DNA of 32,888 nucleotides, from the NCBI GenBank assembly GCA_903927505.1, contig CAIYNF010000159.1, forward strand, positions 1 to 32,888, written 5' to 3'. The DNA is from an uncultured Bacteroidota bacterium (GTDB taxonomy: Bacteria > Bacteroidota > Bacteroidia > UKL13-3). The notes under the pieces are model-generated. The model saw nothing but the letters and a program-made list of their open reading frames with translations, was not told where the DNA came from and made no database searches. The translations under genes were made by a program, and so were the position numbers. Within the stretch, counting starts at the first letter, position 1. Each line of letters begins with the position of its first letter. Positions 2,951 to 32,436 of this stretch are shown piece after piece.

Positions 2951-3514
2951 ATGTTGTTTAACGAATCCGATATCATCAAAGGTTGTTTGGCAGGCGAAAG
3001 AGCCAGTCAGAAGGCCCTATATGAGCATTTTGCCGGAAAAATGTTAGGCGTTTGCATGCGTTATGCCAAAGACAGGGCAGAGGCCGAAGACATGCTGCAG
3101 GAGGGGTTTTTGAAGGTTTTTCAAGGAATTTTTAAGTTTAAATTTGAAGGTAGTTTTGAAGGATGGGTGCGCCGCATTATGGTGTACAATGCCATTAACC
3201 TTTACAAACATAGAAGCCGGAAGTTTCAGGAAGATTTAGACCAAGAGAATTTTGATGCGCCTTTTCATGATAATATACTCGAAAGAATTTCTGCCAAAGA
3301 GATTATTGCATTAATTCAACACATGCCAGAAGGTTACCGGGTAATCTTTAACTTATATGCCATAGAGGGTTATTCTCACAAGGAAATAGCCCAAAAACTA
3401 AATATCGCTGAAGGAACCAGCAAATCGCAATATTCCCGATCCAAGCAGTATATGCAGGGTTTATTGGCCAAACATTATCAGATTTTAAATGAGCCATTTG
3501 AAGCAGCAAAATAA
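2951..3514 (+). CDS. RNA polymerase ECF-type sigma factor
   Basis: A 187-residue group 4 sigma factor that directs RNA polymerase to a small regulon, normally released from an anti-sigma partner by an envelope signal. Region 2 spans about 20-90, with ALYEHFAGKMLGVCMRYAKD, AEDMLQEGFLKVF and a region 2.4-like GWVRRIMVYNAINLYKHR. Region 4 spans about 113-172, with MPEGYRVIFNLYAIEGYSHK and the helix-turn-helix EIAQKLNIAEGTSKSQYSR. Region 3 is absent, as expected for ECF factors. The downstream gene overlaps it by 26 bases, so the two are translated together. That partner carries a single membrane helix behind a short cytoplasmic segment, the usual anti-sigma layout. No autoregulated promoter could be recognised upstream. 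Confidence 0.93.
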   Translation: MLFNESDIIKGCLAGERASQKALYEHFAGKMLGVCMRYAKDRAEAEDMLQEGFLKVFQGIFKFKFEGSFEGWVRRIMVYNAINLYKHRSRKFQEDLDQENFDAPFHDNILERISAKEIIALIQHMPEGYRVIFNLYAIEGYSHKEIAQKLNIAEGTSKSQYSRSKQYMQGLLAKHYQILNEPFEAAK

Positions 3515-5114
3515 TTTTGAGGAGAAGTTGAAGGAACAACTTGATGGCATGGAATGGAAGCCGTCTAATTCCTTGTGGGATCGCATAGAACAAAATATGG
3601 ATGCAGATTCCTTTGAGCCCGCCCTGCAAAATAAACTCGCAAATTATTCTCTTGAACCTCATGCGGAAGTATGGGAAAATGTGGAAGCCCAGCTTCCAGA
3701 GAAAGATAATAGAAAAGGATTTTTGTGGCTAAGCGTTATTTCTTTTGTATTGCTTGCCAGTTTTGGTGCGGGCTATTGGTTCCGCGAAGTGGAGGTAGAA
3801 AACAAGGTAGCGGTTAATGCTGCTGGTCAATCAAATACTTTTCAGCAAGCGCAAACTACTAACAAGGTTTCGGTTCGAACCGACAAAAATGAAATAGAAA
3901 AGGCAAAGGAGAAAGTTAGCAGCAATGCCCCAAAGGATAAGCAATCCATCCAAGTAAAAGCGGCTAAACAATCTATTAAGAAGGTTAAACAGAATGAAAA
4001 TAATTTACTTGCCTTGCGTTCTCCTCAGCGTGCTAAAAAAGCATTAAAGGGAGCCAGTTCTGCTCGCACTAATAAGCTAGGGAATGGCAACACTTTATTG
4101 GCAATTCAATCTGTTTCTACAATTGGTGGAACGGTTATTTCACCCTCAAATATTGTTGCAGGTATAATAGATGCAAACCGTTCACAAAGCGTCAATGAAA
4201 ATTTGGCCAATCCATTGGGTCGTGAAAACGAACCCAAAATTTTAGATGCAGCAAGCATTCCAAGCAATCCTGCCCCAAATGTTAATGTAAAAGAAATTCC
4301 TTCTGCTTCAATTTTAATGGGCAATGCTGCAGATACTTTTGCAGAAAACAAGCCCTTTAGAGGCAGCAGTTATATTGCACCCGAAGAGAACCTTACAAAC
4401 TTCTCTTTAACTGCATTTGCTGGTTTAAATTGGGGTGTGATGCAATTAAAAATGCCCGCTACAAGTAATAATGCCAATATTATTAAAATAGCCAATCTCC
4501 AAAATTCTTACAACTTGCGTAAAAGCATGGAAAGTGCCAGTATTGATTTTACTGGCGGCTTGTTACTTAATTACCATTTTCATAAATCTTGGTTTGTGAG
4601 TATTGGTATTGGCATGACTAACTTAAAACAAGACGTAAGTTTCAATACCAAAACCGCACAACAGCCTAATCCTGTTTTGGTACAGCCGGTTAATCAATAT
4701 GTTCACCCAGGAGATTCAATCATTGCGGGCGCCGGCAATACTTATGAAAACAAATATAGTTTTACAGAAATTCCACTCTTATTGGGTTATCAATTACCAT
4801 CGGAAGGCGATTTTAATTTTAGCCTCATGGGTGGCGTAAGTTATGCGCAACTAAATTTGGTAAATGCTTTTATGCCAGATCCAGCTTGTATTGGTATATT
4901 GGTGGTTACAGATAAAGAATCGTTTCCTAAATTTAAAGATGTGTTATTTCTAAACATAGCACCAGCTGTTTCCTATAAGCTAAATGGTTCTGTTGAAATT
5001 GGCAGTATGCTACAAGGAAAAATGGCACTCAACAATATGGTAGGAGATTTGCAATGGGTGCAGCAAAGGCCTTATTTACTTGGTTTGAACCTATTTATCC
5101 GCAAGCATTTTTAA
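3489..5114 (+). CDS. Anti-sigma-like protein with C-terminal outer-membrane beta-barrel
   Basis: A 541-residue protein whose start overlaps the ECF sigma gene by 26 bases. Residues 1-76 are charged and soluble with two similar segments, KPSNSLWDRIEQNM (24-37) and EPHAEVWENVEAQL (56-69). Residues 78-98 form one hydrophobic helix (LSVISFVLLASFGAGYWF). Residues 100-300 are a Lys/Asn/Ser/Ala-rich low-complexity linker. Residues about 303-541 alternate like beta-strands (NFSLTAFAGLNWGV, WFVSIGIGMTNLKQDV, FTEIPLLLGYQLP, FNFSLMGGVSYAQLNLV) and end in a terminal Phe (LFIRKHF), as in PorT-like barrels. The order suggests a cytoplasmic sigma-binding part, an inner-membrane helix, a periplasmic tether and an outer-membrane barrel. 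No known anti-sigma domain was identified; the role is inferred from architecture and gene overlap. Confidence 0.8.
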   Translation: MSHLKQQNNFEEKLKEQLDGMEWKPSNSLWDRIEQNMDADSFEPALQNKLANYSLEPHAEVWENVEAQLPEKDNRKGFLWLSVISFVLLASFGAGYWFREVEVENKVAVNAAGQSNTFQQAQTTNKVSVRTDKNEIEKAKEKVSSNAPKDKQSIQVKAAKQSIKKVKQNENNLLALRSPQRAKKALKGASSARTNKLGNGNTLLAIQSVSTIGGTVISPSNIVAGIIDANRSQSVNENLANPLGRENEPKILDAASIPSNPAPNVNVKEIPSASILMGNAADTFAENKPFRGSSYIAPEENLTNFSLTAFAGLNWGVMQLKMPATSNNANIIKIANLQNSYNLRKSMESASIDFTGGLLLNYHFHKSWFVSIGIGMTNLKQDVSFNTKTAQQPNPVLVQPVNQYVHPGDSIIAGAGNTYENKYSFTEIPLLLGYQLPSEGDFNFSLMGGVSYAQLNLVNAFMPDPACIGILVVTDKESFPKFKDVLFLNIAPAVSYKLNGSVEIGSMLQGKMALNNMVGDLQWVQQRPYLLGLNLFIRKHF

Positions 5115-7800: not shown

Positions 7801-9141
7801 TTATGCTTCGTTTTTCTTAGCCGCTACAGCATTTTTTAACCATTCAAAGGTTACAGATTTTGGTCTTTCAATTGGCAAGCCCAAAGCTCTATCCCACATT
7901 AATGAGGCCATTACGCCTAAGGCACGACTCACACCAAAAAGAACGGTGTAGAAGTCATATTCTTTTAAGCCATAATGCAATAGCAAAGCGCCAGAATGCG
8001 CGTCTACGTTTGGCCAAGGGTTTTTGATTTTTCCTGTGCCTTCTAAAATGGGAGGTGCAACTTCATAAATGTTCCAAACAATATTTACCAATTCGTCGTC
8101 TGGCATATATGTTTTTGCAAATTCTTGTTGTGCCACAAAACGAGGGTCGGTTTTTCTAAGCACGGCATGGCCATAACCTGGAACCACTTTGCCATTTAAC
8201 AATGTTTTATGGATATATGCAGCAATTTCTTCTTTGCTTGGTGCATGACCAATTTCATCACGCATTTCAAAAATCCATCTTACTACTTCTTGGTTGGCCA
8301 ATCCGTGCAATGGACCTGCCAATCCGTTCATGGCTGCAGCAAATGAAAGATAAGGATCGCTCAAGGCCGAACCAACCAAGTGGGTAGTATGGGCCGAAAC
8401 ATTTCCACCTTCATGATCGGCATGAATAGTTAAATACAAACGCATTAACTTGTAGAATTCATTTTGATCGAAGCCCAACATGTGGGCAAAATTTGCTGCC
8501 CAATCCAAATCTGGATTTGGAGCAATATGCTCATTGTTTTTGTAGGTTCTTCTGTAAATATAAGCTGCAATTCTAGGCAAACGAGCCAAAAGGTTGGTTA
8601 CATCTTCGTAGGTAGGATCCCAATAATCTTTTTTATTGATTCCGTCATGGTAGGCTTTTGCAAACACAGATTCGTGTTGCATGGCCATAATACCAATGCT
8701 AAATTGGGTCATTGGATGCGTGGTAATTGGCAAAGAATCTAAAGTAGTGAAAACATGCGCAGGCACTTCCGCTCTTTCTCTCCAGGTTGCTTGAATATCT
8801 AATACATCCTCATAGGTGGGCATTTCACCTAACAACATCAAATAAAATAATCCTTCTGGAAGTGGCTCGGTTCCACCCGGAACTTTTGGAAGTTTTTCCC
8901 TCAATTCAGGAATGGTATAACCTCTAAAACGAATTCCTTCGTTTGCATCTAATAAAGAAGTTTCAGTTAATAGTCCAATAATGCCTTTTTGGCCTGCGTA
9001 AACATCTTCAACTGTAAATTGCCCAAGGGGCGTATTTCCGTTTTCTTTAACAAATTGCCTGATCTCTGCCGAAAGTGGCAAAGCTTTTTCGATAAACTTT
9101 TTCTTTAACTGACCCATTTTTCTAAATATTCTTAGACTCAA
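7801..9141 (-). CDS. gltA: Citrate synthase, mitochondrial-like type
   Basis: Condenses oxaloacetate and acetyl-CoA to citrate, the entry step of the TCA cycle, in the cytoplasm. The protein resembles the eukaryotic/mitochondrial branch rather than the E. coli hexameric one: it has [20 protein letters not shown] (240-259) and [10 protein letters not shown]. The catalytic triad can be placed as His279 (GPLHG), His325 (PGYGHAVLR) and Asp380 (NVDAHSG). Length is 446 residues from the first ATG. A second ATG at 9117 (MGQLKKKF) aligns better with the usual N-terminus of the family and may be the true start, giving 438 residues. The gene is alone in its transcription unit, diverging from the TonB-dependent receptor and ending at the hairpin at 7749-7781. 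Confidence 0.96.
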
Positions 9142-9153
9142 ATAATAACCGCG

Positions 9154-9219
9154 CTAAATTAGTATTTGTTTTACAACTAAAACAAATTGTTTTAAAAAAT
9201 GCAGAAATTGTTATTTTTA
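9154..9219. promoter_or_regulatory. Divergent gltA / receptor promoter region with half-site array
   Basis: Three alternating half-sites occupy 9165-9194: TTTGTTTTA (9165-9173), CAAC spacer, TAAAACAAA (9178-9186), then TTGTTTTA (9187-9194), so two overlapping inverted repeats share the middle arm. Possible promoter cores are TAATTTAG (minus, 9154-9161) for gltA and TATTTTTA (plus, 9212-9219) for the receptor, each one base off TAnnTTTG. The repeats are seen directly; the operator role is inference. Confidence 0.45.
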
Positions 9220-9236
9220 CCAAGCGCCTAATTACT

Positions 9237-11558
9237 ATGAAGAGACACGTTTTTTATTTGTTTATGATATTTGTCAGCCTGCTGAAAACGCCCGTTTTTA
9301 GCCAAGGTTTGCTTATTAAGGGAGTTGTAATTGATGAGAATACATCTTTGCCACTTTCGGCTGTTTCGGTAACTTTAGATAAAAAATACAATACACTTAC
9401 AGATTCACATGGCTTTTTTTCTTTTTCTGTTCAGCCCGGAAAACACCAATTAAAGGTGAGTAGGGTTGGTTATAAAAACTACGATTTGGTTTTTGAAGAA
9501 CAATTAGAGGGTAAGCGTGAATTTCAAGTTGCATTAGCACCATTTGTTAACCAGCTGAACCAAGTTGTAATTGCAGGCTCTCGCGGCGCAAAGGAAGTGG
9601 CAAGGGAAGTCACCTCTGTAAATATTATTCAGCCCTATTTAATTAGTAATAGCAATGCCACAGATTTATCTGAGGTGTTAAATAAAGTGCCAGGTGTAAG
9701 TGTGGTAGATGGACAAGCTACTATTAGAGGTGGCGTAGGTTTCTCTTATAATACTGGCAGCAGGGTTGCAGTGTTGTTAGATGATATGCCCTTGCTTGGT
9801 GCCGACTTGGGCGATATTCAATGGTCGTTTTTACCCATAGAAGCGGCCGAACAAATTGAAATTATTAAAGGGTCTGCCTCAGTTTTGTATGGTTCTTCTG
9901 CTTTAAACGGAACCGTAAATGTGCGCACAGGCTGGGGTTCGGCTAAACCAATTACCAAGTTTCAATTTTATGAGGGCATACTTTCTAATCCAAAAAGAAA
10001 GGAAATGATTTGGTGGTCGCCTTCTTCTCATCCTTCAAACAGTGGTATGTTTTATAGCCACAAACAAAGTTGGGGTAAATTTGACTTAGTAGTTTGTGGT
10101 AATTTAAATGCCGTACATAGTCATTTGCAAGGAGCAGATTTAAATAGAGGAAGAAATTACCTTAAAACACGTTACCGCTTTACCCCTAATTTAAGTGCGG
10201 GTATCAATGTAAATATGATGGTGGAGCAAGCAGGTCGCTTCTTTTTATGGGCCGATGCCGATACGGGTGCACTCAAACCATTAGACAATTATGTGGTTGA
10301 CGATTTCTTTAGAATCATTTCATTAGATCCCCATTTAGAATACAAAAAAGGTAAAACTACCCAAACATTTAAAGCGCGCATGTACCAAGTAAAGCGCTTT
10401 GTAGACAGAGCTGTTCATCCATTAGACAATGATGCAATTGCCAATTTATATGCCTTTGATTATAATTTAAAAACCAGTTTGTTTAAAAACTTTTACCTAA
10501 CCTCGGGTACCTATTTAACTAGTCTATGGGCGGTGGGTAATGTATACAAAGGTGAATTTGCTGGCTTTAGCAGAGCCGTTTTTACTCAGGCCGATTACCG
10601 TTACAAACGTTGGAGTTTTGTATTAGGAGGCCGGTATGAAATTAACGGATTAGATAAATACCAAGAAAGCACCGGTTTGCTCAAACGTATTGGCGCTAAT
10701 TTTCAAGCAGCAGAAAAAACTTTTTTACGCGCCAATTATTCAGAAGGTTATCGCTTTCCAACTATTGGTGAAAAATATGTGGAAGATAAAGCGGCCAGTA
10801 TTCGTTTGTTTCCTAACGATAAATTGGTTTCAGAACGAGGGTTTACAGCAGAGTTTGGTGTGCAGCAAGGATTTAAAATTGGCAATTTTAATGGCTCCAT
10901 AGATTTTGCCATTTTCGATCAAGAGTACGACAGCATGATTGATTTTAGGTTCGACCAATGGCTGTCTTCAATAGATTACCCTACATTGCCAATTTGGCAA
11001 AGGGTAGGCTTTAAGGCTGTAAATATTGGCCAAACGCGGGCGGCAGGTTTTGAAATAAGTGTAAGTGGCGAAGGTAGAATAGGTGATGTGTTAATTAGAA
11101 CTTTAGGTGGTTTTACCTATTCTTTGCCAATGAACTTAAGCACTAATCCTGAAATGGCAGATTGGGGTAATTATTGCACAGCTTTCTTTAATAGTTTTGG
11201 TAAATTAGATAGCTCAAAATATTATGGCGCGCTATTGCCTTATAGAAATAGAAAAACTGCTAAATGGGATATTGAGGCTTCGTTGAAGAAATTTTCATTG
11301 GGTTATTCCCTCAATTATTTCAGTGTATATGAAAAAGTGGATGCCTTCTTTCCTGTGTTTATCCCAAGTGTAAAAACATTTTTTGAAAGAGCCGGAAGGG
11401 GTAACTTAATTCAAAACATACGTTTCTCCTACCAAATGACACAACAAAGTCGCTTGGCAATTTTAATAAACAATTTTACTAACGAAGAATATGCCACACG
11501 TCCAGGGAAAATGGACCCAATGCGCAGTTTTAATGTACAATTAAGGATAATGTTTTAA
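9237..11558 (+). CDS. TonB-dependent outer-membrane receptor
   Basis: A 773-residue outer-membrane active transporter for an unknown ligand, energised by TonB-ExbBD. A signal peptide (1-22, ending VFSQ) is followed by a carboxypeptidase-regulatory-like domain (about 26-100, with IKGVVIDENTSLPLSAVSVT and VSRVGYKNYDL). The plug domain covers about 115-235 (DLSEVLNKVPGVSVVDGQA, VAVLLDDMPLLGADLGDIQ, AAEQIEIIKGSASVLYGSSA), and a beta-barrel ends in the terminal Phe of NVQLRIMF. It is not a SusC-type receptor: it is shorter and no SusD gene follows. The MFS gene starts 19 bases after its stop, so receptor and transporter are probably one operon, which suggests but does not show a shared substrate. 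Confidence 0.93.
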   Translation: MKRHVFYLFMIFVSLLKTPVFSQGLLIKGVVIDENTSLPLSAVSVTLDKKYNTLTDSHGFFSFSVQPGKHQLKVSRVGYKNYDLVFEEQLEGKREFQVALAPFVNQLNQVVIAGSRGAKEVAREVTSVNIIQPYLISNSNATDLSEVLNKVPGVSVVDGQATIRGGVGFSYNTGSRVAVLLDDMPLLGADLGDIQWSFLPIEAAEQIEIIKGSASVLYGSSALNGTVNVRTGWGSAKPITKFQFYEGILSNPKRKEMIWWSPSSHPSNSGMFYSHKQSWGKFDLVVCGNLNAVHSHLQGADLNRGRNYLKTRYRFTPNLSAGINVNMMVEQAGRFFLWADADTGALKPLDNYVVDDFFRIISLDPHLEYKKGKTTQTFKARMYQVKRFVDRAVHPLDNDAIANLYAFDYNLKTSLFKNFYLTSGTYLTSLWAVGNVYKGEFAGFSRAVFTQADYRYKRWSFVLGGRYEINGLDKYQESTGLLKRIGANFQAAEKTFLRANYSEGYRFPTIGEKYVEDKAASIRLFPNDKLVSERGFTAEFGVQQGFKIGNFNGSIDFAIFDQEYDSMIDFRFDQWLSSIDYPTLPIWQRVGFKAVNIGQTRAAGFEISVSGEGRIGDVLIRTLGGFTYSLPMNLSTNPEMADWGNYCTAFFNSFGKLDSSKYYGALLPYRNRKTAKWDIEASLKKFSLGYSLNYFSVYEKVDAFFPVFIPSVKTFFERAGRGNLIQNIRFSYQMTQQSRLAILINNFTNEEYATRPGKMDPMRSFNVQLRIMF

Positions 11559-11577: not shown

Positions 11578-12786
11578 ATGAAAAATAAGTCGCCTATTTT
11601 TGTACTTTTTGTTACCATCTTAATTGATTTATTGGGATTTGGCCTCATTATTCCCATACTTCCCATTTTTGCGAGCGAGCTTAACGCAGGTCCATTTGTT
11701 ATTGGATTAATTGCTGGAATATACTCCTTAATGAACTTTTTGTTTGCACCTTTTTGGGGGACATTGAGTGATAAAATTGGAAGAAGACCTGTTATGCTTA
11801 TCAGCATATTTTTAACCATGCTTTCTTATGTGTTTTTCTCCTTTACGCACAGTTTAACTTTCTTAATTATTTCGCGCATATTTTCGGGAATGGGTTCGGC
11901 AAATATTTCTGCTGCCCAAGCATATATTGCAGATATTACAACGCCAGAAAACAGGGCCAAAAATATGGGTATCATTGGTGCTGGATTTGGATTGGGTTTT
12001 ATTTTTGGTCCACCCGTAGGAGGTTATTTGAAATCTATCAGTGGTGCCGGAAGTGTTGATATTGTAGGTTATTTTGCTGCGGGCTTGTGTGCATTTAATC
12101 TGCTATTGGCCTATTTATATTTGCCAGAATCACTAAAGGTAAAGAACCCAGATAAGGCATTTAGTTTTAAGCCAATTGCCAATATACTTCATGAACTAAA
12201 AAAGCCTGTAATCAGCGAGTTAATTTCTATCAACTTTTTATTTGTAGTTGCCTTTTCAATGATGTCGTTAACAGCGGCTATATTATGGGCCGAACACTAC
12301 GGATTTGACACCAAACAAATAGGCTATGTGTTTATGTATATTGGCTTAACTGCTGCCATTGTACAAGGAGGTTTGGTTGGTAAATTAAGCAAGGCTTTTG
12401 GTGAGAAAAAGTTGTTGTTGTATGGTTCATTATTAATGGCTTTTGGCTTAGCCACTTTGCCCTTTGCACCAACAGATATGTTCTTCTTTCAATTTATTAG
12501 TTTAGGTTTAATTTCACTAGCAAACGGCTGTTTAACGCCTTCTATAAATTCACTTATTTCGCAGGCGGCAAATCCAGGAGAGCAGGGCCAAGCTTTAGGC
12601 ACCAACCAATCTCTGGGGTCCTTGGCAAGGGTTGTAGGACCTGTGCTTGGAGGTTTTCTGTTTAACTTACATTATACTTTACCCTACCTTCTTGGAGCAG
12701 TATTAATGATAGGGGCTTATGGCGTTTCTAAGTTGCTCAAAAATCAAAATACCACCGATGCCAATATGGTAACGGAAATTAATTAA
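11578..12786 (+). CDS. MFS transporter, TetA/DHA1-like
   Basis: A 402-residue inner-membrane protein with about 12 hydrophobic helices. The first helix carries the DHA1/TetA-like phrase ILIDLLGFGLIIPILP (14-29), the loop after helix 2 has motif A as GTLSDKIGRRPVML (61-74), and GFIFGPPVGGYL is the motif C-like antiporter signature. By family it would export a drug-like compound in exchange for protons; some relatives import siderophores instead. It lies 19 bases after the TonB-dependent receptor and 28 bases before the RND adaptor gene on the same strand, so all may be transcribed together. The substrate cannot be told from sequence; calling it a tetracycline resistance gene would go beyond the evidence. 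Confidence 0.92.
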   Translation: MKNKSPIFVLFVTILIDLLGFGLIIPILPIFASELNAGPFVIGLIAGIYSLMNFLFAPFWGTLSDKIGRRPVMLISIFLTMLSYVFFSFTHSLTFLIISRIFSGMGSANISAAQAYIADITTPENRAKNMGIIGAGFGLGFIFGPPVGGYLKSISGAGSVDIVGYFAAGLCAFNLLLAYLYLPESLKVKNPDKAFSFKPIANILHELKKPVISELISINFLFVVAFSMMSLTAAILWAEHYGFDTKQIGYVFMYIGLTAAIVQGGLVGKLSKAFGEKKLLLYGSLLMAFGLATLPFAPTDMFFFQFISLGLISLANGCLTPSINSLISQAANPGEQGQALGTNQSLGSLARVVGPVLGGFLFNLHYTLPYLLGAVLMIGAYGVSKLLKNQNTTDANMVTEIN

Positions 12787-12814
12787 TCTGCTATTTCTAT
12801 TTTAGTAAATATTC

Positions 12815-13879
12815 ATGAAAAGGTTTAAAAATATATTCATATTACTTGCCATCATAACTTTGTTATTGGTGCTAAAATTTTTCTGTGGTACCAAGAAAAT
12901 GGAGCAAGGAGCAAAACCCGGTGGTCCATCTAAAATGCCAGTGAAGGTGAGTGTGCAGGTGCTAAAAGGAGAATTGGTTTCGCCAGTTTATCATGTGAGT
13001 GGAAGTCTTTTGGCCAATGAGCAAGTGCAGTTAAATTGTGAAGCGCAAGGCTTGGTTAAAAATATGTTGTTTAAGGAAGGTGCACGGGTTGCTAAAGGGG
13101 CGCTGTTAATGAAAATAAATGATGCCGATTTACAAGCGCAGTTAAAGAAAGCGCTTGCCAATAAAAAACTAAAAGAAGACAATGCCAAACGCAATGAGGT
13201 GTTATTGAAAAAAGAGGCCATGGCACAAGCAGATTACGACTTTTCTGTAAATGAACTCAATGCTATAAATGCCGATATTGATTACCTAAAGGAAATGATC
13301 CGCAAAACGGAAATTCGTGCCCCTTTTAATGGCAATATTGGTTTGCGTAATATAAGTGAGGGCGCTTATGTAACGCTCAATACCAACATTGCCACCTTGC
13401 AAGATGTATCAAAATTAAAGATTGATTTTTCTGTGCCAGAAAAGTATGCACTTAAAGTAAATATTGGAGATGAAATTAGTTTCACGGTTAGTGGTTCGGA
13501 TGAAGTTTATACCGCAAAAATATATGCCCGCGATGCAGCTATTTCTAGCGATACGCGCTCAGTAAAAATGCGTGCTTTGTGCAATAACAATTCAGGTAAT
13601 TTAATGCCAGGTTTGTTTGCTACTATTACCATGAATTTAGGTTCGGACCGAAACTCTTATATGATACCTACCCAAGCATTGGTGCCAATTTTAAAAGGGC
13701 AAAAAGTTTATGTGGTGCAAGGAGATTCGGCAATTGAAAAAATGGTGAAAACAGGCTTTAGAAGTGAGACCCAAATAGAAATTACCGATGGCCTTAATGC
13801 AGGCGATTCACTTATTGTTGAAGGTATCATGTACATGAAAACAGGTGTGAGAGTTAAAGTGGGCAAATCAAAATTATGA
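12815..13879 (+). CDS. RND efflux periplasmic adaptor (membrane fusion protein)
   Basis: A 354-residue AcrA/MexA-type linker between the inner-membrane RND pump and the TolC-like channel. One N-terminal hydrophobic segment (8-24) anchors it; the Cys that follows (LKFFCGT) is not in a good lipobox. The first lipoyl half is at about 66-103 (CEAQGLVKNMLFKEGARVAK), a helical hairpin follows (about 104-160, Lys/Ala-rich), and the second half has the family signature TEIRAPFNGNIG (165-176). Beta-barrel and membrane-proximal parts complete it (TRSVKMRALCNN, LMPGLFATITMN). Its stop overlaps the pump's ATG by four bases (ATGA), so translation is coupled. Confidence 0.95.
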   Translation: MKRFKNIFILLAIITLLLVLKFFCGTKKMEQGAKPGGPSKMPVKVSVQVLKGELVSPVYHVSGSLLANEQVQLNCEAQGLVKNMLFKEGARVAKGALLMKINDADLQAQLKKALANKKLKEDNAKRNEVLLKKEAMAQADYDFSVNELNAINADIDYLKEMIRKTEIRAPFNGNIGLRNISEGAYVTLNTNIATLQDVSKLKIDFSVPEKYALKVNIGDEISFTVSGSDEVYTAKIYARDAAISSDTRSVKMRALCNNNSGNLMPGLFATITMNLGSDRNSYMIPTQALVPILKGQKVYVVQGDSAIEKMVKTGFRSETQIEITDGLNAGDSLIVEGIMYMKTGVRVKVGKSKL

Positions 13880-16800
13880 GTTTAGCGAGTACCAGTATCA
13901 ATAGGCCAGTGTTGGCCGTGGTGTGTTCCATTCTCATTGTAATGTTTGGCGCCATTTCTTTTAATTATTTGGGTGTGCGTGAATTCCCAAGTATTGATCC
14001 GCCTGTTATTACGGTTAGAACAAGTTATACAGGTGCCAATCCAGATATCATTGAATCGCAAATAACAGAGCCACTGGAAAAAGCAATCAATGGTATTGCA
14101 GGTATTCGTTCTATCTCTTCTTCAAGCAACCAAGGGAGCAGTACCATCACGGTTGAATTTGGATTAACATCAAATTTGGAAGAGGCTGCCAATGATGTGC
14201 GCGACAAAGTTTCGCAAACACTCAAACAATTGCCACAAGATATAGATGCCCCACCTGTGGTGAGTAAAGCAGATGCCAATTCTGATGCCATTGTTTCACT
14301 TACGCTGCAGAGCGATTCGCGTTCGCGCTTAGACCTAAACGACTATGCCGAAAATGTGGTAATGGAGCGTTTGCAAACCATACCTGGTGTGAGCAATATT
14401 CAAATTTGGGGTCAGAAAAAATATGCCATGCGCCTTTGGCTCGATCCAGATAAGTTGGCTGCCTTTGGTTTAACACCCTTGGATGTACGTTCTGCTTTAG
14501 ATAGAGAAAATATAGAATTGCCAGGAGGAAAAATTACTGGCGACAATATGGAATTGGCTATTAAAACTGTGGGTAGGTATACTACCGAAGAGCAGTTTAA
14601 CAATATTGTTATTAAAAATATTGGCACCCAAGTGGTGCGCATGGCAGATATTGGCAGGGCGGTGCTTGGACCAGAAAACGAAGAGTCGATGTTAAAGTCG
14701 TCCGGTATGCCTTTGATAGGTTTAGGTTTAGTGCCTCAGCCGGGTGCTAATTACATTGAAATAGCCGATGAATTTTACCGCAGGTACGCCATCATTCAAA
14801 AGGAAGTGCCAAGTGATATTCATTTAAATGTTGCCTTAGACAATACAAAATTTGTGCGCACTTCCATTAGCGAAGTAGGCGAAACTTTATTGATTGCTTT
14901 CTTATTAGTAGTGCTCATTATCTTTTTGTTTTTCCGTGATTGGCTTATTGCAATCCGACCATTGGTAGATATTCCGGTATCCTTAATAGGTTCTTTTTTT
15001 ATTATGTACATGGCTGGCTTTAGTATCAATATCCTTACGCTTTTGGCCATTGTTTTGGCAACTGGTTTGGTGGTAGATGATGGTATTGTAGTAACAGAGA
15101 ATATTTTTAAGAAAATAGAGGAGGGATTAAATCCTCGTCAGGCCGCCATTAAAGGAACCAATGAAATTTTCTTTGCTGTAATTGCTACCTCAATCACCTT
15201 AGCGGTTGTGTTTTTACCTATTATTTTTATTCAAGGATTTGTAGGTCGTTTGTTCCGTGAATTTGGGGTCGTCGTGGCTGGTTCGGTATTAATCTCTGCC
15301 TTTGTTTCGCTAACACTCACGCCTGTTTTAAACGTTTTCTTGCAAAGGAAAAACAATAAGCATTCTAAATTTTATGAACGAACCGAACCTTTTTTTGTAA
15401 ACCTAAATAATGCCTATTCCAAATCTTTGGAAAAGATGTTTCAAAACAGGTGGCAGGTATGGACGCTTATTGCGGTGAGCATGGTATTGATTTTTGTGAT
15501 AGGTAAAAACTTGCAATCGGAATTATCGCCATTGGATGATAGAAGTTGGATGCGTATTAGTTCAACCGCACCAGAGGGTACCTCTTTTGATTATATGGAC
15601 AGGTATATGGACCAAATTTCAAGTTTGGTAGATGATTCTATTCCAGAAAAAAGAATGACTTTGGTGGTAACCGCTCCGGGCTTTACAGGAAGTGGTGCCA
15701 TGAATACAGGATTTGTGCGTGTCATGCTTTCGGAAGCCGATCAAAGAAAACGATCGCAACAACAAATTGCGCAAAAACTGCAACAGCAATTAATGGGTTT
15801 AACGGGTGCTAAATCTTTTGTTATTCAAGACCAAACCATAACAGGAACAGGTGGTTCGCGTGCGGGATTGCCCGTACAATTTATTTTGCAGAACCAAGAT
15901 TTTAGTAAAATACAAAGCTATTTGCCAAAATTTTTGGAAGAGGTAAATGCCAGTAAAGTTTTTCAAGGGGTTGATGTAAACTTAAAGTTTAACCGACCAG
16001 AATTGGTGATAAATTTTGATAGAGAACGCGCAAAAAATTTAGGTGTGAGTGTGCAAACCGTAGCCCAAACTTTGCAGTTTGCCTATGGTGGTATGCGCTA
16101 TGGTTACTTCACCAAAAACGGCAAGCAATACCAAATTATTGGGCAGGTGGAGCGCGAACACCGCGATGCGCCTATTGATTTAAAATCACTTTATGTGCGC
16201 AATGATAGAGGCACATTAATTCAATTAGACAATATTGTATCTATTGTAGAACAAAGTAGTCCGCCTCAATTATACCATTACAACAGGTACAAAGCGGCAA
16301 CGGTTTCTGCGGGTTTAGCGCCAGGCAAAACAATTGGTGACGGTATTGATGAAATGAAACGCATTCAGAAAAAAGTATTAGACGATTCATTCACAACAGA
16401 TTTGGGTGGTCCTTCACGCGATTTTTCTGAAAGTTCATCCAATACCTTGTTTGCGTTTATTTTGGCTTTGATACTGGTTTACCTTGTATTGGCAGCGCAG
16501 TTTGAAAGTTTTATTGATCCAATAATTATCATGTTTACTGTTCCTTTGGCTTTGGCAGGAGCATTAATAACACTTTGGTATTTTGATCAAACCATGAATA
16601 TTTTTAGCCAAATTGGAATTATTGTTCTCTTAGGTTTGGTTACCAAAAATGGAATTTTAATTGTGGAGTTTGCCAACCAGAAACGCGCCCATGGCATGCC
16701 AAAATTACAAGCGGTAAAAGAAGCAGCGGTTTCTCGTTTGCGTCCCATTATGATGACCAGCCTAGCAACCATTTTGGGGGCATTGCCCATTGCCCTAGCC

Positions 16801-16965
16801 CTTGGTGCAGGTGCCAAAAGTAGGGTTTCTTTGGGAATGGTAATTATTGGCGGATTGCTGTTTTCTGGCTTCTTAACTTTATATGTTATTCCTGTAGTTT
16901 ATGAATTTATGTCGGGTAAAAAGAAAATTGAATCACCAAGTGAAATAACAAATGAAGAACACTAA
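13876..16965 (+). CDS. RND efflux permease, AcrB/MexB-like
   Basis: A 1029-residue inner-membrane proton antiporter that exports hydrophobic compounds through the adaptor and TolC channel. It has 12 expected membrane helices and two large periplasmic loops. It opens with the typical ASTSINRPVLAVVCSILIVM and GVREFPSIDPPVITV. The proton-relay residues of AcrB are present: the adjacent Asp401 and Asp402 in ATGLVVDDGIVVTEN, and Lys924 in LLGLVTKNGILIVEFANQ. This marks it as a drug/hydrophobe exporter of the HAE type rather than a heavy-metal pump. It overlaps the adaptor gene by four bases and the TolC-like gene by 14 bases, giving a compact three-gene pump operon. The substrate is unknown and no local repressor gene is seen. 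Confidence 0.96.
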   Translation: MSLASTSINRPVLAVVCSILIVMFGAISFNYLGVREFPSIDPPVITVRTSYTGANPDIIESQITEPLEKAINGIAGIRSISSSSNQGSSTITVEFGLTSNLEEAANDVRDKVSQTLKQLPQDIDAPPVVSKADANSDAIVSLTLQSDSRSRLDLNDYAENVVMERLQTIPGVSNIQIWGQKKYAMRLWLDPDKLAAFGLTPLDVRSALDRENIELPGGKITGDNMELAIKTVGRYTTEEQFNNIVIKNIGTQVVRMADIGRAVLGPENEESMLKSSGMPLIGLGLVPQPGANYIEIADEFYRRYAIIQKEVPSDIHLNVALDNTKFVRTSISEVGETLLIAFLLVVLIIFLFFRDWLIAIRPLVDIPVSLIGSFFIMYMAGFSINILTLLAIVLATGLVVDDGIVVTENIFKKIEEGLNPRQAAIKGTNEIFFAVIATSITLAVVFLPIIFIQGFVGRLFREFGVVVAGSVLISAFVSLTLTPVLNVFLQRKNNKHSKFYERTEPFFVNLNNAYSKSLEKMFQNRWQVWTLIAVSMVLIFVIGKNLQSELSPLDDRSWMRISSTAPEGTSFDYMDRYMDQISSLVDDSIPEKRMTLVVTAPGFTGSGAMNTGFVRVMLSEADQRKRSQQQIAQKLQQQLMGLTGAKSFVIQDQTITGTGGSRAGLPVQFILQNQDFSKIQSYLPKFLEEVNASKVFQGVDVNLKFNRPELVINFDRERAKNLGVSVQTVAQTLQFAYGGMRYGYFTKNGKQYQIIGQVEREHRDAPIDLKSLYVRNDRGTLIQLDNIVSIVEQSSPPQLYHYNRYKAATVSAGLAPGKTIGDGIDEMKRIQKKVLDDSFTTDLGGPSRDFSESSSNTLFAFILALILVYLVLAAQFESFIDPIIIMFTVPLALAGALITLWYFDQTMNIFSQIGIIVLLGLVTKNGILIVEFANQKRAHGMPKLQAVKEAAVSRLRPIMMTSLATILGALPIALALGAGAKSRVSLGMVIIGGLLFSGFLTLYVIPVVYEFMSGKKKIESPSEITNEEH

Positions 16966-18262
16966 ACTATATTTATTTTTTCTGTTGTTTTTGCTTTTAG
17001 GCGGACCAATATTTGCACAAAATACTTTGAGTTTGAAGCAGGCATTTGAATTGGCTTTGCAGCAAAATTATTCCATTCAAATTGCAAGCAATGAATTGGA
17101 AATTGCCAAGAAAAACAATGTAATGGGCAATGCTGGCATGTTACCTGTTTTAACAGGTACCATGAACCAAGACAACCAAATTCAAGATACCAAACAAGAG
17201 TTTCTTGGTGGTAATAAAAACAATAAAAACGGTGCCCGCAGCAATCAATTAAACGGTGGAGTTGAAATGAGTTGGACTTTGTTTAATGGCATGAAAATGT
17301 TTGCGAGCAAAAGCAGATTGGCAGAATTGGAAGCCATGGGCGAATTGAAATTGCGCCAGCAAATGGAAAATACCTTGAGTAAAGTTGCAAAATCGTATAT
17401 GGATTTATTGCTTATTCGTGAGCAAATAAAATCGGCAAAATCTTTTATAGAAATCAGTGAAAAGCGTTTAGAAATTGCAAAAGCAAAGGTGCTGGCAGGA
17501 AAGAGTTCTAAGTCGGAAGTGCTCAATGCCCAGGTAAATGTAAACAGCGATTTGGCGGCATACAAAAAATTAGAAACCAATTACCGTAACAGTAAATTAA
17601 GTTTAAATCAATTATTAGGAAAGGATATTGACTTTACATTTGAGCCAAGTGACTCTTTAGAACCAAAAGAAAAAATGGCTTTGGAGGAATTACGCAATTT
17701 GGCGCGTAAGAACAATACAGGACTAAGAATGGCAGAAGTGAACAAAGAAATTGCTTTACTTCAAATGCGTGAAATTAAGGGCGAACGCTATCCAGTATTT
17801 CAAGTGAAGGGTGGGTATTTGTTTAACCAGCAACAATCACAAGCAGGTTTTTTACAATCATCTAATACCAACGGTGTTCATTATGGAGCCGGATTGAACC
17901 TAAATATTTTTAATGGGTATGATGTAAACAGGCGTGTAAACAATGCCAAGCTCACCTATAGAAATACCGATTTACTTTTAAAAGATTCTTTGTTAAAGCT
18001 TGATATTGCTCTGGCACAGGCCTATAATGTTTACCTCACCAATATTGATTTGTTTCATTTTGAAGAAAACAATTTGGACGTGGCTAGGCAAAATTTTGAA
18101 ATTTCACAAGCACAGCAAGAACAAGGGATGATTAGCAGCAACGACCTAAGGATTGCCCAAGTGAATTATTTGCAAAATGTAAACCGCCTTTTACAAGCAG
18201 CCTATGATGCCATGTTAAGTGAAATTGAATTGAAACGTTTGAGCGGTTCTTTGCTTAAATAA
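16952..18262 (+). CDS. TolC-family outer-membrane efflux channel
   Basis: A 436-residue outer-membrane factor completing the tripartite RND pump. The signal peptide (MKNTKLYLFFLLFLLLGG, cleaved near IFAQ) is followed by two similar halves, each with strand and long coiled-coil helix segments. The first begins LSLKQAFELALQQNYSIQIA, and both halves contain Asn/Gln/Lys-rich helices (for example SEVLNAQVNVNSDLAAYKKL and NDLRIAQVNYLQNVNRLL). The start overlaps the pump gene by 14 bases. Its stop codon abuts the stop codon of the convergent MCE gene with no base between and no terminator hairpin, so transcripts of the two strands must overlap. Confidence 0.94.
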   Translation: MKNTKLYLFFLLFLLLGGPIFAQNTLSLKQAFELALQQNYSIQIASNELEIAKKNNVMGNAGMLPVLTGTMNQDNQIQDTKQEFLGGNKNNKNGARSNQLNGGVEMSWTLFNGMKMFASKSRLAELEAMGELKLRQQMENTLSKVAKSYMDLLLIREQIKSAKSFIEISEKRLEIAKAKVLAGKSSKSEVLNAQVNVNSDLAAYKKLETNYRNSKLSLNQLLGKDIDFTFEPSDSLEPKEKMALEELRNLARKNNTGLRMAEVNKEIALLQMREIKGERYPVFQVKGGYLFNQQQSQAGFLQSSNTNGVHYGAGLNLNIFNGYDVNRRVNNAKLTYRNTDLLLKDSLLKLDIALAQAYNVYLTNIDLFHFEENNLDVARQNFEISQAQQEQGMISSNDLRIAQVNYLQNVNRLLQAAYDAMLSEIELKRLSGSLLK

Positions 18263-28364: not shown

Positions 28365-30632
28365 TTAACCTGCTACTTGTTTGCGGATAATATTCAAAGC
28401 ACCACCTGCTCTAAACCATTCTATTTGTTGGTCGTTATAAGTATGGTTTACTTGGATATTTTCTGAACTGCCATCGGCATGGTGTAATACCAAAGTTAAT
28501 GCTTTGCCTGGCGCAAATTCATTTAAGCCAATGATGTCAATTTGATCGTCTTCTTGGAATTTTTCGTAATCATTTTTATCTGCAAATGTTAAGCCCAACA
28601 TACCTTGTTTTTTCAAGTTGGTTTCATGTATACGTGCAAATGATTTTACCAAAACAGCTCTAACACCTAAATGACGAGGTTCCATAGCAGCATGCTCGCG
28701 GCTACTTCCTTCGCCATAGTTTTCGTCACCTACTACAATTGATCCAATGCCTTGTGCTTTATAAGCACGTTGTACTTTAGGAACAGATTGGTATTCGCCA
28801 GTCAACTGGTTTTTGACATTGTCGGTTTTTTCATTGAAGAAATTTACCGCACCAATTAACATGTTGTTTGAAATATTGTCTAAGTGACCACGGTATTTTA
28901 ACCATGGACCAGCCATTGAAATATGGTCTGTGGTACACTTACCTTTTGCTTTGATAAGTAATTTTAAACCATTAAGGTCGCTGCCTTCCCATGCCGCAAA
29001 TGGATCTAATAATTGCAAACGATCAGAAGTAGGAGATACAGCAATATTTACTGCCGAACCATCCACTGCTGGTGCAAGATAACCTGCATCTTCCACTGCA
29101 TAACCTTTGGTAGGCAATTCATCGCCACTTGGTGGATCTAATTTCACAGCTTCACCTTTATTATTAATTAAAGTGTCTGTAATAGGGTTAAATGATAAAT
29201 CGCCGGCAATAGCAATTGCTGCTACCATTTCTGGTGAAGCAACAAATGCATAGGTATTTGGATTGCCATCTGCGCGTTTTGCAAAGTTGCGGTTAAAGGA
29301 GTGTACAATGGTATTCTTTTCTGCTTTTTCTGCACCAACCCTGTCCCACATACCAATACATGGTCCGCAAGCATTTGTAAAGATGCTGGCATTTAAATCT
29401 GTAAAAGTCTTAATTAAACCATCTCTATCGGCGGTAAAACGTACTTGCTCCGAGCCTGGGTTGATCCCAAATTCTGCTTTGGTTACCAATCCTTTTTCAA
29501 TTGCTTGACGTGCAATAGATGCAGCGCGAGATAAATCTTCGTAGGATGAATTGGTACAAGAACCAATTAAACCCCATTCAACTTTTAAAGGCCAATTGTT
29601 TTTAGCAGCAGCTTCTTTCATTTCTGAAATAGGTGTTGCCAAATCTGGTGTAAATGGTCCGTTCAAATGTGGCGTTAAAGTATCTAAATTGATTTCAAAA
29701 ACTTGGTCGAAATACATTTCCGGATTTGCATAAACCTCTGGGTCACCTGTTAGGTGTGCTTTTACGCCATTTGCTAAATCTGCTACTTCATTTCTACCCG
29801 TAGCGCGCAAGTAACGCTCCATGCTATCATCGTAACCAAAAGTAGAAGTGGTTGCACCAATTTCTGCACCCATATTACAAATGGTTCCTTTACCGGTACA
29901 GCTCATGCTGGTAGCACCTTCGCCAAAATATTCTACAATGGCACCCGTTCCACCTTTAACAGTTAGCATTCCTGCTACTTTTAAAATAACATCTTTAGGG
30001 GCGGTCCAACCGTTTAATTTTCCTGTTAATTTAATACCAATTAATTTAGGGAATTTTAGCTCCCATGGTAAGCCTGCCATTACATCACAAGCATCTGCTC
30101 CACCAACACCAATAGCCAACATACCTAATCCACCTGCGTTTACGGTATGTGAGTCTGTTCCAATCATCATACCACCTGGGAATGCATAATTTTCTAGAAC
30201 CACCTGGTGAATAATACCTGCACCTGGTTTCCAAAATCCAATACCATATTTATTAGATACCGAAGCAAGGAAATCATACACTTCTTTACTTTCTGTATTG
30301 GCAAATGCCAAATCATCTTTAGCACCTGTTTTAGCTGTAATTAAATGGTCGCAATGAACAGTAGAAGGCACAGCAACTTTAGGGCGACCCGCTTGCATGA
30401 ATTGAAGCAAAGCCATTTGTGCTGTAGCATCTTGCATGGCAACGCGGTCTGGACCAAAGTCTACATAGCTTTTGCCACGCTCATAGGATTGGCTTGCATT
30501 GCCTTCTGTAAGGTGACTGTATAAAATCTTTTCTGAAAGGGTAAGGGGTTTGTTAACCACTTTTCTGGCGGCCTCAATGCGTTCGCCCATGCGGGTGTAA
30601 ACCGCTTTAATCATGTCTAAATCGAAAACCAT
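28365..30632 (-). CDS. acnA: Aconitate hydratase (mitochondrial-like)
   Basis: Isomerises citrate to isocitrate through cis-aconitate with a [4Fe-4S] cluster, the TCA step after citrate synthase. At 755 residues it has the length of the mitochondrial aconitase type (shorter than AcnA of about 890). Cluster ligands are Cys359 ([12 protein letters not shown]) and Cys422/Cys425 ([13 protein letters not shown]). Other active-site motifs are [13 protein letters not shown] (86-98), [17 protein letters not shown] (156-172) and, in the C-terminal swivel domain, [20 protein letters not shown]. The upstream leader contains a hairpin with T-rich flank (30663-30707). The symbol acnA is used loosely; the clade is nearer to eukaryotic ACO2. 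Confidence 0.96.
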
Positions 30633-31224: not shown

Positions 31225-32436
31225 ATGCTGCAAATAAAAGTCCCAACCGTAGGTGAATCCATCAATGAAGTTACCCTTGCCAAATGGAACAAGAAAACTG
31301 GTGATTTTGTAGAAATGGACGAACTAATTTGTGAGTTGGAAAGTGATAAAGCAACTTTTGAATTAAATGCGGAGACCGCAGGAATATTGCATACCAAATG
31401 TGCCGAAGGCGATACCCTAAAAATTGGCGATTTACTAGCAGAAATTGATACAGCTGCCAAAAGACCAGAAGGCGCAGTGAAGCCTGCAGCAAAGCCAGTT
31501 GAGGCCAAAGCGCCTGCAGCAGCTCCTGTAAATGTGCCTTCAAATACTACCTATGCAAGTGGCACTCCAGCTCCTGCAGCACAAAAAATATTGGCAGAAA
31601 AAGGAATCAATCCTGCGCAAGTTGTTGGTTCGGGCAAAGATGGCAGAATAACAAAATTTGACGCCCTGAAAGCCGAATTGAAAGTGGTTTCAAATGAAGT
31701 AAAAAGAAGAGAAGACCGCGTAGAAAAAATGACTTCATTGCGCAAGACAGTTTCTAAGCGCTTGCTTGCCGCAAAAAATGAAACGGCTATGTTAACTACT
31801 TTTAATGAGGTAGACATGAAGCCCATCATGGATTTGCGTAACCAATACAAAAATAAATTTAAAGAAACCCATGGCGTAAACCTTGGTTTCATGAGCTTCT
31901 TTACCAAAGCGGTTTGTGTGGCATTGCAAGAGTTTCCTGCCGTAAATGCTTACCTCAATGGCGAAGAAATTATCTACCACAACTACTGTGATGTTTCTAT
32001 TGCAGTGAGTGCGCCAAAAGGTTTAGTGGTTCCTGTAATTAGAAATGCAGAAGCACTGAGCTTGGCCGAAATAGAAGCAGAAGTAATGCGTTTGGCCGGT
32101 AAAGCCAGAGAAAATAAATTGAGTATTGAAGAAATGACCGGCGGAACATTCACCATTACCAATGGCGGTGTTTTTGGTTCTATGTTAAGTACACCAATTA
32201 TTAATCCTCCTCAGTCTGCTATATTAGGAATGCACAATATTGTGGAGCGCGCCGTGGTTCAAAACGGACAAATTGTTATTCGCCCTATTATGTACGTGGC
32301 TTTGAGTTACGACCATAGAATTATTGATGGCAGAGAGTCTGTAGGGTTTTTGGTGAAAGTAAAACAGTGTTTAGAAAACCCAACCCTATTGCTTACTCAA
32401 GGTACCGATCCTAATAAATTGTTGTTAGGAATATAA
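31225..32436 (+). CDS. odhB: 2-oxoglutarate dehydrogenase E2 (dihydrolipoyl succinyltransferase)
   Basis: Transfers succinyl from the lipoyl arm to CoA in the 2-oxoglutarate dehydrogenase complex. The lipoyl domain (1-75) carries the modified Lys42 in [11 protein letters not shown]. An Ala/Pro/Lys linker (about 78-105) leads to the E3/E1-binding domain (about 108-145, with [20 protein letters not shown] and [14 protein letters not shown]). The catalytic domain (about 165-403) ends with His364 and Asp368 in [20 protein letters not shown]. The N-terminal [18 protein letters not shown] and the [18 protein letters not shown] segment are typical of the succinyl rather than acetyl enzyme. The E1 gene, commonly adjacent, is not next to it here: upstream is the small unknown gene and downstream a convergent glycosyltransferase. 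Confidence 0.95.

Follow-up and report, generated by a model that had tools for sequence, protein, structure and literature searches.

What does a symmetric 30-base stretch between two divergent operons do? We analysed a window of 32,888 nucleotides (the whole stretch of DNA under study) in which the initial annotation had described a triple alternating half-site at 9165-9194, between the citrate synthase gene gltA and a gene for a TonB-dependent receptor. It proposed that one regulator could occupy either of two overlapping dimer sites there and so repress either gltA or the receptor operon. Our comparison across related genomes points to another reading. The 30 bases are probably the junction of two compact back-to-back Bacteroidota housekeeping (sigma-A-type) promoters, each built on the pattern -33 TTTG / -7 TAnnTTTG. 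The sequence suggests that the arms are mostly the gltA core promoter abutting the receptor operon promoter, and not a two-position switch site.

Gene context of the intergenic region

The gene calls on both sides agree with the initial annotation, which placed the site between two divergent promoters; promoter-like boxes are predicted on either side. On the minus strand, gltA (7801..9117) encodes a citrate synthase of 438 aa (Pfam PF00285, 2.6e-96; NCBIfam TIGR01793, above cutoff). On the plus strand, the TonB-dependent receptor (9237..11558; PF00593 and PF07715) is the first gene of the divergent operon. Domain matches identify an MFS transporter, an RND adaptor, an RND pump and a TolC-type outer membrane protein at 11578..18262 on the same strand, probably in one operon with the receptor. 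In NCBIfam the MFS transporter comes closest to the Tet(A)/(B)/(C) family, with a score under the cutoff.

We compared this gene order with 16 regions from relatives, two of which (L153 and L154) end inside the receptor. The receptor, MFS transporter, RND adaptor, RND pump and TolC-type protein occur in the same order in four of them (L141, L142, L144 and L146), and L143 has the efflux gene set without an MFS match. The other regions have the receptor with at most one other gene of the set, and in other genera mostly the receptor alone. Several other genera have a receptor homologue as the divergent neighbour of gltA, and about 140 to 720 bp separate the two matches; in the g5 genomes the receptor homologues are on different contigs from gltA. 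Judged from the sequences compared, the pairing of gltA with the receptor is old in the family.

An aconitase (28365-30632, minus strand) and a 2-oxoacid dehydrogenase E2 (31225-32436, plus strand) lie about 20 kb from gltA and make up a loose TCA-related cluster in the window. The gltA motif was not found within 3 mismatches in the region upstream of the aconitase.

The three arms and their expected frequency

The 30 bases read as had been claimed. Arm 1 (ATTTGTTTTA, 9164-9173) is mirrored exactly by arm 2 (TAAAACAAAT, 9178-9187) across the 4-base spacer CAAC. These exact 10-bp arms extend the first inverted repeat by one base per side relative to the initial annotation. The second inverted repeat has exact 8-bp arms, TAAAACAA (9178-9185) and TTGTTTTA (9187-9194), separated by a single A, and the middle arm is common to both repeats. 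The dyad centres are at 9175.5 and 9186, 10.5 bp apart.

We counted such triples in shuffled sequences, requiring arms of at least 8, a spacer of at most 8 and one common arm. Dinucleotide shuffling of the intergenic region (119 bp, 76% A+T) produced a triple in 14 of 20000 trials, and shuffling of the whole window did so in 2 of 200. Single inverted repeats of the same size turned up in 2160 of the 20000 intergenic shuffles, so only the triple is unusual.

Conservation across the family

The comparison set comprised 64 rows of sequence upstream of gltA. Of these, 58 come from family genomes, one row each (30 loci plus 20 and 8 regions), and six were added: the genus genomes L047, L048, L058 and L059, and the named records L199 (coordinates agree with G060) and L189 (a candidate counterpart of G061). 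A second, partial gltA match in G030 was left out. Genus g1 contributes 19 rows (the genus rows), g7 contributes 4 and other genera 41; the rows are related, so the counts are not independent. Six rows of g14 and g3, all of which lack the arm 1 block, and L038, which aligns poorly, were entered as misses.

Sixteen relatives share 77-95% identity with the window over 39 bases around the arms, whereas their gltA fourfold sites agree at only 32-49%. Because these 39 bases are far better kept than the near-saturated fourfold sites, the stretch is very probably functional. The initial annotation had named a lack of conservation in related genomes as evidence that would speak against its site; we found the stretch kept there far above the neutral expectation.

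The conserved columns in g1 do not follow the symmetry of the window. Between 16 and 19 of the 19 rows agree at most columns of 9153-9171 and 9176-9191; lower values occur at 9162 (11/19), 9188 (12/19) and 9179 (13/19, with a base that differs from the window's). At 9172-9175, at most 11 of 19 rows agree. The genus consensus lacks the symmetric 10-bp arms seen in the window: T at 9172 occurs in 6 of 19 rows, and A at 9179 is not the majority base. Of the half-sites, which the initial annotation suggested seeking upstream of gltA orthologs, arm 1 recurs (its block is present in 52 of the 64 rows), also in genera that lack arms 2 and 3. Where the receptor start is 174-203 bp off (L028-L031 and L033), arm 1, the arm 2 core and the GTT of arm 3 are still beside gltA; in L027, which also has a distant receptor start, arm 1 alone is kept.

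Predicted promoter of gltA

We infer box assignments and start sites from conservation and from the promoter pattern of the phylum. Conservation in the genus marks a predicted gltA -7 box, TAATTTAG (9154..9161, minus strand; consensus TAnnTTTG). Positions 9153-9158 and 9160-9161 are invariant in 19/19 genus rows and 9159 is kept in 16/19. On the gltA strand, arm 1 is part of a conserved AAACAAATA element that adjoins the -7 box at predicted positions -22 to -14 and would sit in the promoter spacer, at about -18. Its TTTGTTT is exact in 18/19 genus rows, 4/4 g7 rows and 22/41 rows of other genera. Arm 1 and the -7 box together form a block that reads AAACAAATANTAATTT on the gltA strand and scores at least 14 of 16 in the 52 rows mentioned above, against a shuffle mean of 0.29 and a shuffle maximum of 2 of 64. 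Genera that have neither arm 2 nor arm 3 still carry this block, as do those in which the receptor lies elsewhere than next to gltA.

Arm 2 contains CAAA at 9183-9186, which is TTTG on the gltA strand (predicted positions -37 to -34) and lies 21 bases upstream of the -7 box. This TTTG is likely the gltA -33 box. The core ACAAA (9182-9186; TTTGT on the gltA strand) is invariant in 19/19 genus rows and the outer bases vary; AAACAAA is exact in 15/19 rows of g1, 0/4 of g7 and 0/41 of the others. The g5 rows, which are without arm 2, have CAAA (TTTG) 19 bases from the -7 box in 9 of 10 cases. In another group (L240, L241 and L244), ATTTGTTTAA occupies a similar position before TAAATTTA at gltA, as read by eye. 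With the -7 box set at -12 to -5, transcription of gltA would start at about 9149 and give a leader of 32 nt.

Predicted promoter of the receptor operon

Arm 3 (TTGTTTTA, 9187..9194) is the candidate -33 region of the receptor, and its GTT is common to the upstream edge of the gltA promoter. The whole arm is exact in 8/19 genus rows. Only the GTT is invariant (19/19 genus rows; 3/4 in g7), and it is kept in the genus rows L028-L030, where the receptor start is about 200 bp away. On the plus strand, the arm 3 TTG lies 22 bases upstream of a predicted -7 box, TATTTTTA (9212..9219), which would drive the receptor operon. Set at -12 to -5, this box gives a predicted start at about 9224 and a leader of 13 nt. 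Of the 16 rows that have a nearby receptor box, 6 have lost the TTG (TAG or AAG), which makes the assignment of a receptor -33 box uncertain. Where the receptor does not adjoin gltA (L150, L151, L155 and L156), the best arm scores in the 160 bp before it were 10, 10, 8 and 9 of 14, values that carry no chance control.

The receptor box (TTATTTTTAC) is present in 16/19 genus rows, and its offset from 9156 is 55 in 14 rows and 54 and 56 in one row each. The offset from the gltA box to the ATG ranges from 39 to 44 in the rows with this near-fixed box-to-box offset. The pattern suggests that box-to-box spacing may matter and that two polymerases may exclude each other.

Two facing promoters as the probable source of the symmetry

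On these assignments, the -33 elements of gltA and of the receptor would adjoin at 9183-9189. The palindromes would then have two sources: the -33 elements face each other (CAAA-TTG), and the gltA spacer element is by chance complementary to the -33 element. With 75 bp between the predicted starts, there would hardly be room for two RNA polymerases at once. We infer that the two operons may be coupled by polymerase competition, without a regulator that switches dimer positions; through such exclusion, the reciprocal link between gltA and the receptor that the initial annotation proposed could exist without a switching regulator. The locus would then illustrate how promoters placed back to back in Bacteroidota can look like a multi-dimer operator, because facing TTTG boxes read as inverted repeats.

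Excerpts of published work on the phylum describe a promoter consensus of -33 TTTG / -7 TAnnTTTG (PMC7366714, PMC9723704, PMC6847099) with the -7 box at -12 to -5 (PMC6847099, PMC9723704). In F. johnsoniae promoters, leaders are reported to average 33 nt, A+T-rich motifs lie at -18 and -28, and the -33 motif is far less evident than the -7 box (PMC6847099). The promoters predicted here resemble the sigma-ABfr promoters of these excerpts. Both -7 boxes carry 5 of the 6 fixed consensus bases, with one missed, a TTTG or TTG lies upstream, an A+T-rich motif falls near -18, and the predicted gltA leader of 32 nt is close to the reported mean of 33 (PMC6847099). They differ from them, as far as those excerpts go, in their spacings of 21 and 22 and in a gene-specific conserved spacer element at gltA.

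The promoter reading is weakened by these long spacings, by how little evident the -33 motif is in F. johnsoniae, by the base that each -7 box misses and by the loss of the arm 3 TTG in 6 of 16 rows. It also leaves arm 1 unexplained, which by its sequence is more specific than a generic A+T-rich motif and is uncommon elsewhere. Most family rows have retained the gltA spacer element despite near-saturated divergence, and it could offer a lead to the control of citrate synthase in Bacteroidota. We found no account of this kind of gltA regulation in the limited literature that we searched. No E. coli type promoters were found at 9000-9400 and no Rfam matches in the window, and the arms fall outside both predicted transcripts.

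Two further systems offer a comparison. In bidirectional bacterial promoters, -10 elements can be shared. Here, in contrast, the predicted starts are 75 bp apart and it is the -33 elements that adjoin. The likeness to back-to-back or bidirectional promoters, as an excerpt of PMC10268837 presents them, lies in divergent transcription, polymerase footprints that would overlap, and symmetry between the two. The second system is the operator inside a promoter. MerR-type operators place a dyad inside a lengthened promoter spacer. The gltA promoter likewise would have a dyad between its elements and a spacer two bases longer than in g5, but the dyad centre is 3.5 bp off the spacer centre and the symmetry is not conserved. 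No MerR domain was detected among the genes scanned near gltA.

A possible regulator specific to gltA

A gltA-specific regulator could bind the spacer element AAACAAATA (arm 1) and repress or activate gltA from inside the promoter, in g1 perhaps as a dimer on TTTGTTT-N8-AAACAAA. We consider this unlikely, with several observations on its side. The arm 1 block is kept beyond what a -7 box needs in the 52 rows, arm 2 mirrors arm 1 in the 15 g1 rows with exact AAACAAA, and the dyad lies between -33 and -7, in a spacer of 21 bases vs 19 in g5, a geometry like that of MerR-type operators.

The pattern of changes argues against the dimer. Mirrored conservation of half-sites is expected of a dimer operator. 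Among the 23 g1 and g7 rows, nine depart from the consensus in arm 1 or arm 2, perhaps representing about five independent events when judged by likeness, and none of the nine (0/9) has a mirrored change. Conservation differs between the two sides of the first dyad: 9172-9175 vary, 16 to 19 of 19 rows agree at 9176-9178, and the ACT conserved there is not matched by a conserved mirror sequence in the genus rows.

Genome searches gave little sign of further targets. In the 19 genus genomes, TTTGTTT-N8-AAACAAA has 27 matches vs 9 for the reversed control, 14 of them at gltA and 13 elsewhere. In the 64 family genomes, AAACAAATANTAATTT has 46 matches vs 17 for the reversed control, 30 at gltA and 16 elsewhere; in this split, the one match in G061, whose gltA position was not placed, is booked as elsewhere, and G060 is placed via L199. 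Away from gltA both motifs are at about control level (13 vs 9 in the genus, 16 vs 17 in the family). With up to 2 mismatches, AAACAAATANTAATTT has 99 sites in the window's own genome vs 84 for the reversed control. No transcription-factor domain was found beside gltA among the genes scanned in the window, and the nearest regulator-like gene among them is a sigma factor (2951-3514). Both the regulon test and the linked-gene test would miss a regulator that has one target and is encoded far away.

The sigma factor ORF belongs to the sigma-70 family, has regions 2 and 4 only (ECF-like) and overlaps the start of an ORF at 3489-5114 (plus strand) that matches an outer-membrane barrel. An identical 22-mer, TTTGTTTTTATCTATAAACAAA, occurs away from gltA in two species of the genus (G002:C20:207248 and G016:C2:112543).

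A bolder form of this idea, which we think still somewhat less probable, is that a dedicated citrate synthase protein reads AAACAAATA at about -18 in most of the examined genera of the family. In one genus, its site would have grown to form a dyad with the -33 box and would have been joined, back to back, to an efflux/uptake operon, which would make TCA entry and envelope transport mutually exclusive.

The proposed switch between two dimer sites, and chance

The proposal of the initial annotation, one regulator alternating between two overlapping dimer sites with a common middle arm, now appears very improbable. It would account for the exact triple arms of the window, which are rare in shuffles, for dyad centres 10.5 bp apart, and for the nearly fixed box-to-box offset in the short-gap arrangement. 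The arms, however, change independently and without mirrored changes, arm 3 is mostly represented by its GTT alone (exact in just 8/19 genus rows), and five rows retain the GTT with the receptor start 174-203 bp off.

Sites of the same kind elsewhere in the genome, which the initial annotation had suggested looking for, were not recovered. Below 2 mismatches the search of the window's own genome returned only the site itself, and with up to 3 mismatches TTTGTTTTANNNNTAAAACAAA has 46 sites there vs 38 for the reversed control. Profile R1 was built from 18 of the 23 g1 and g7 rows, the window among them; L029 and L058 (identical here to rows used), L027, L033 and L189 were left out. It scored 2.2e-7 at the site and 0.04 at the next best among the 150 of 6769 first-look candidates that were scored in this genome, so that no second strong match appeared.

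A functionless chance palindrome in A+T-rich DNA, for which the frequency of single inverted repeats in the shuffles speaks, is barely credible given the strong conservation at near-saturated divergence and the recurrence of the arm 1 block, which refute chance for the entire stretch; part of the symmetry may still be accidental.

A different inverted repeat, GTTGC-N5-GCAAC, lies upstream of gltA in another group (L248, L254 and L265, with one mismatch in L265). As read by eye, it sits between a TTTG and a TAnnTTTA-like box.
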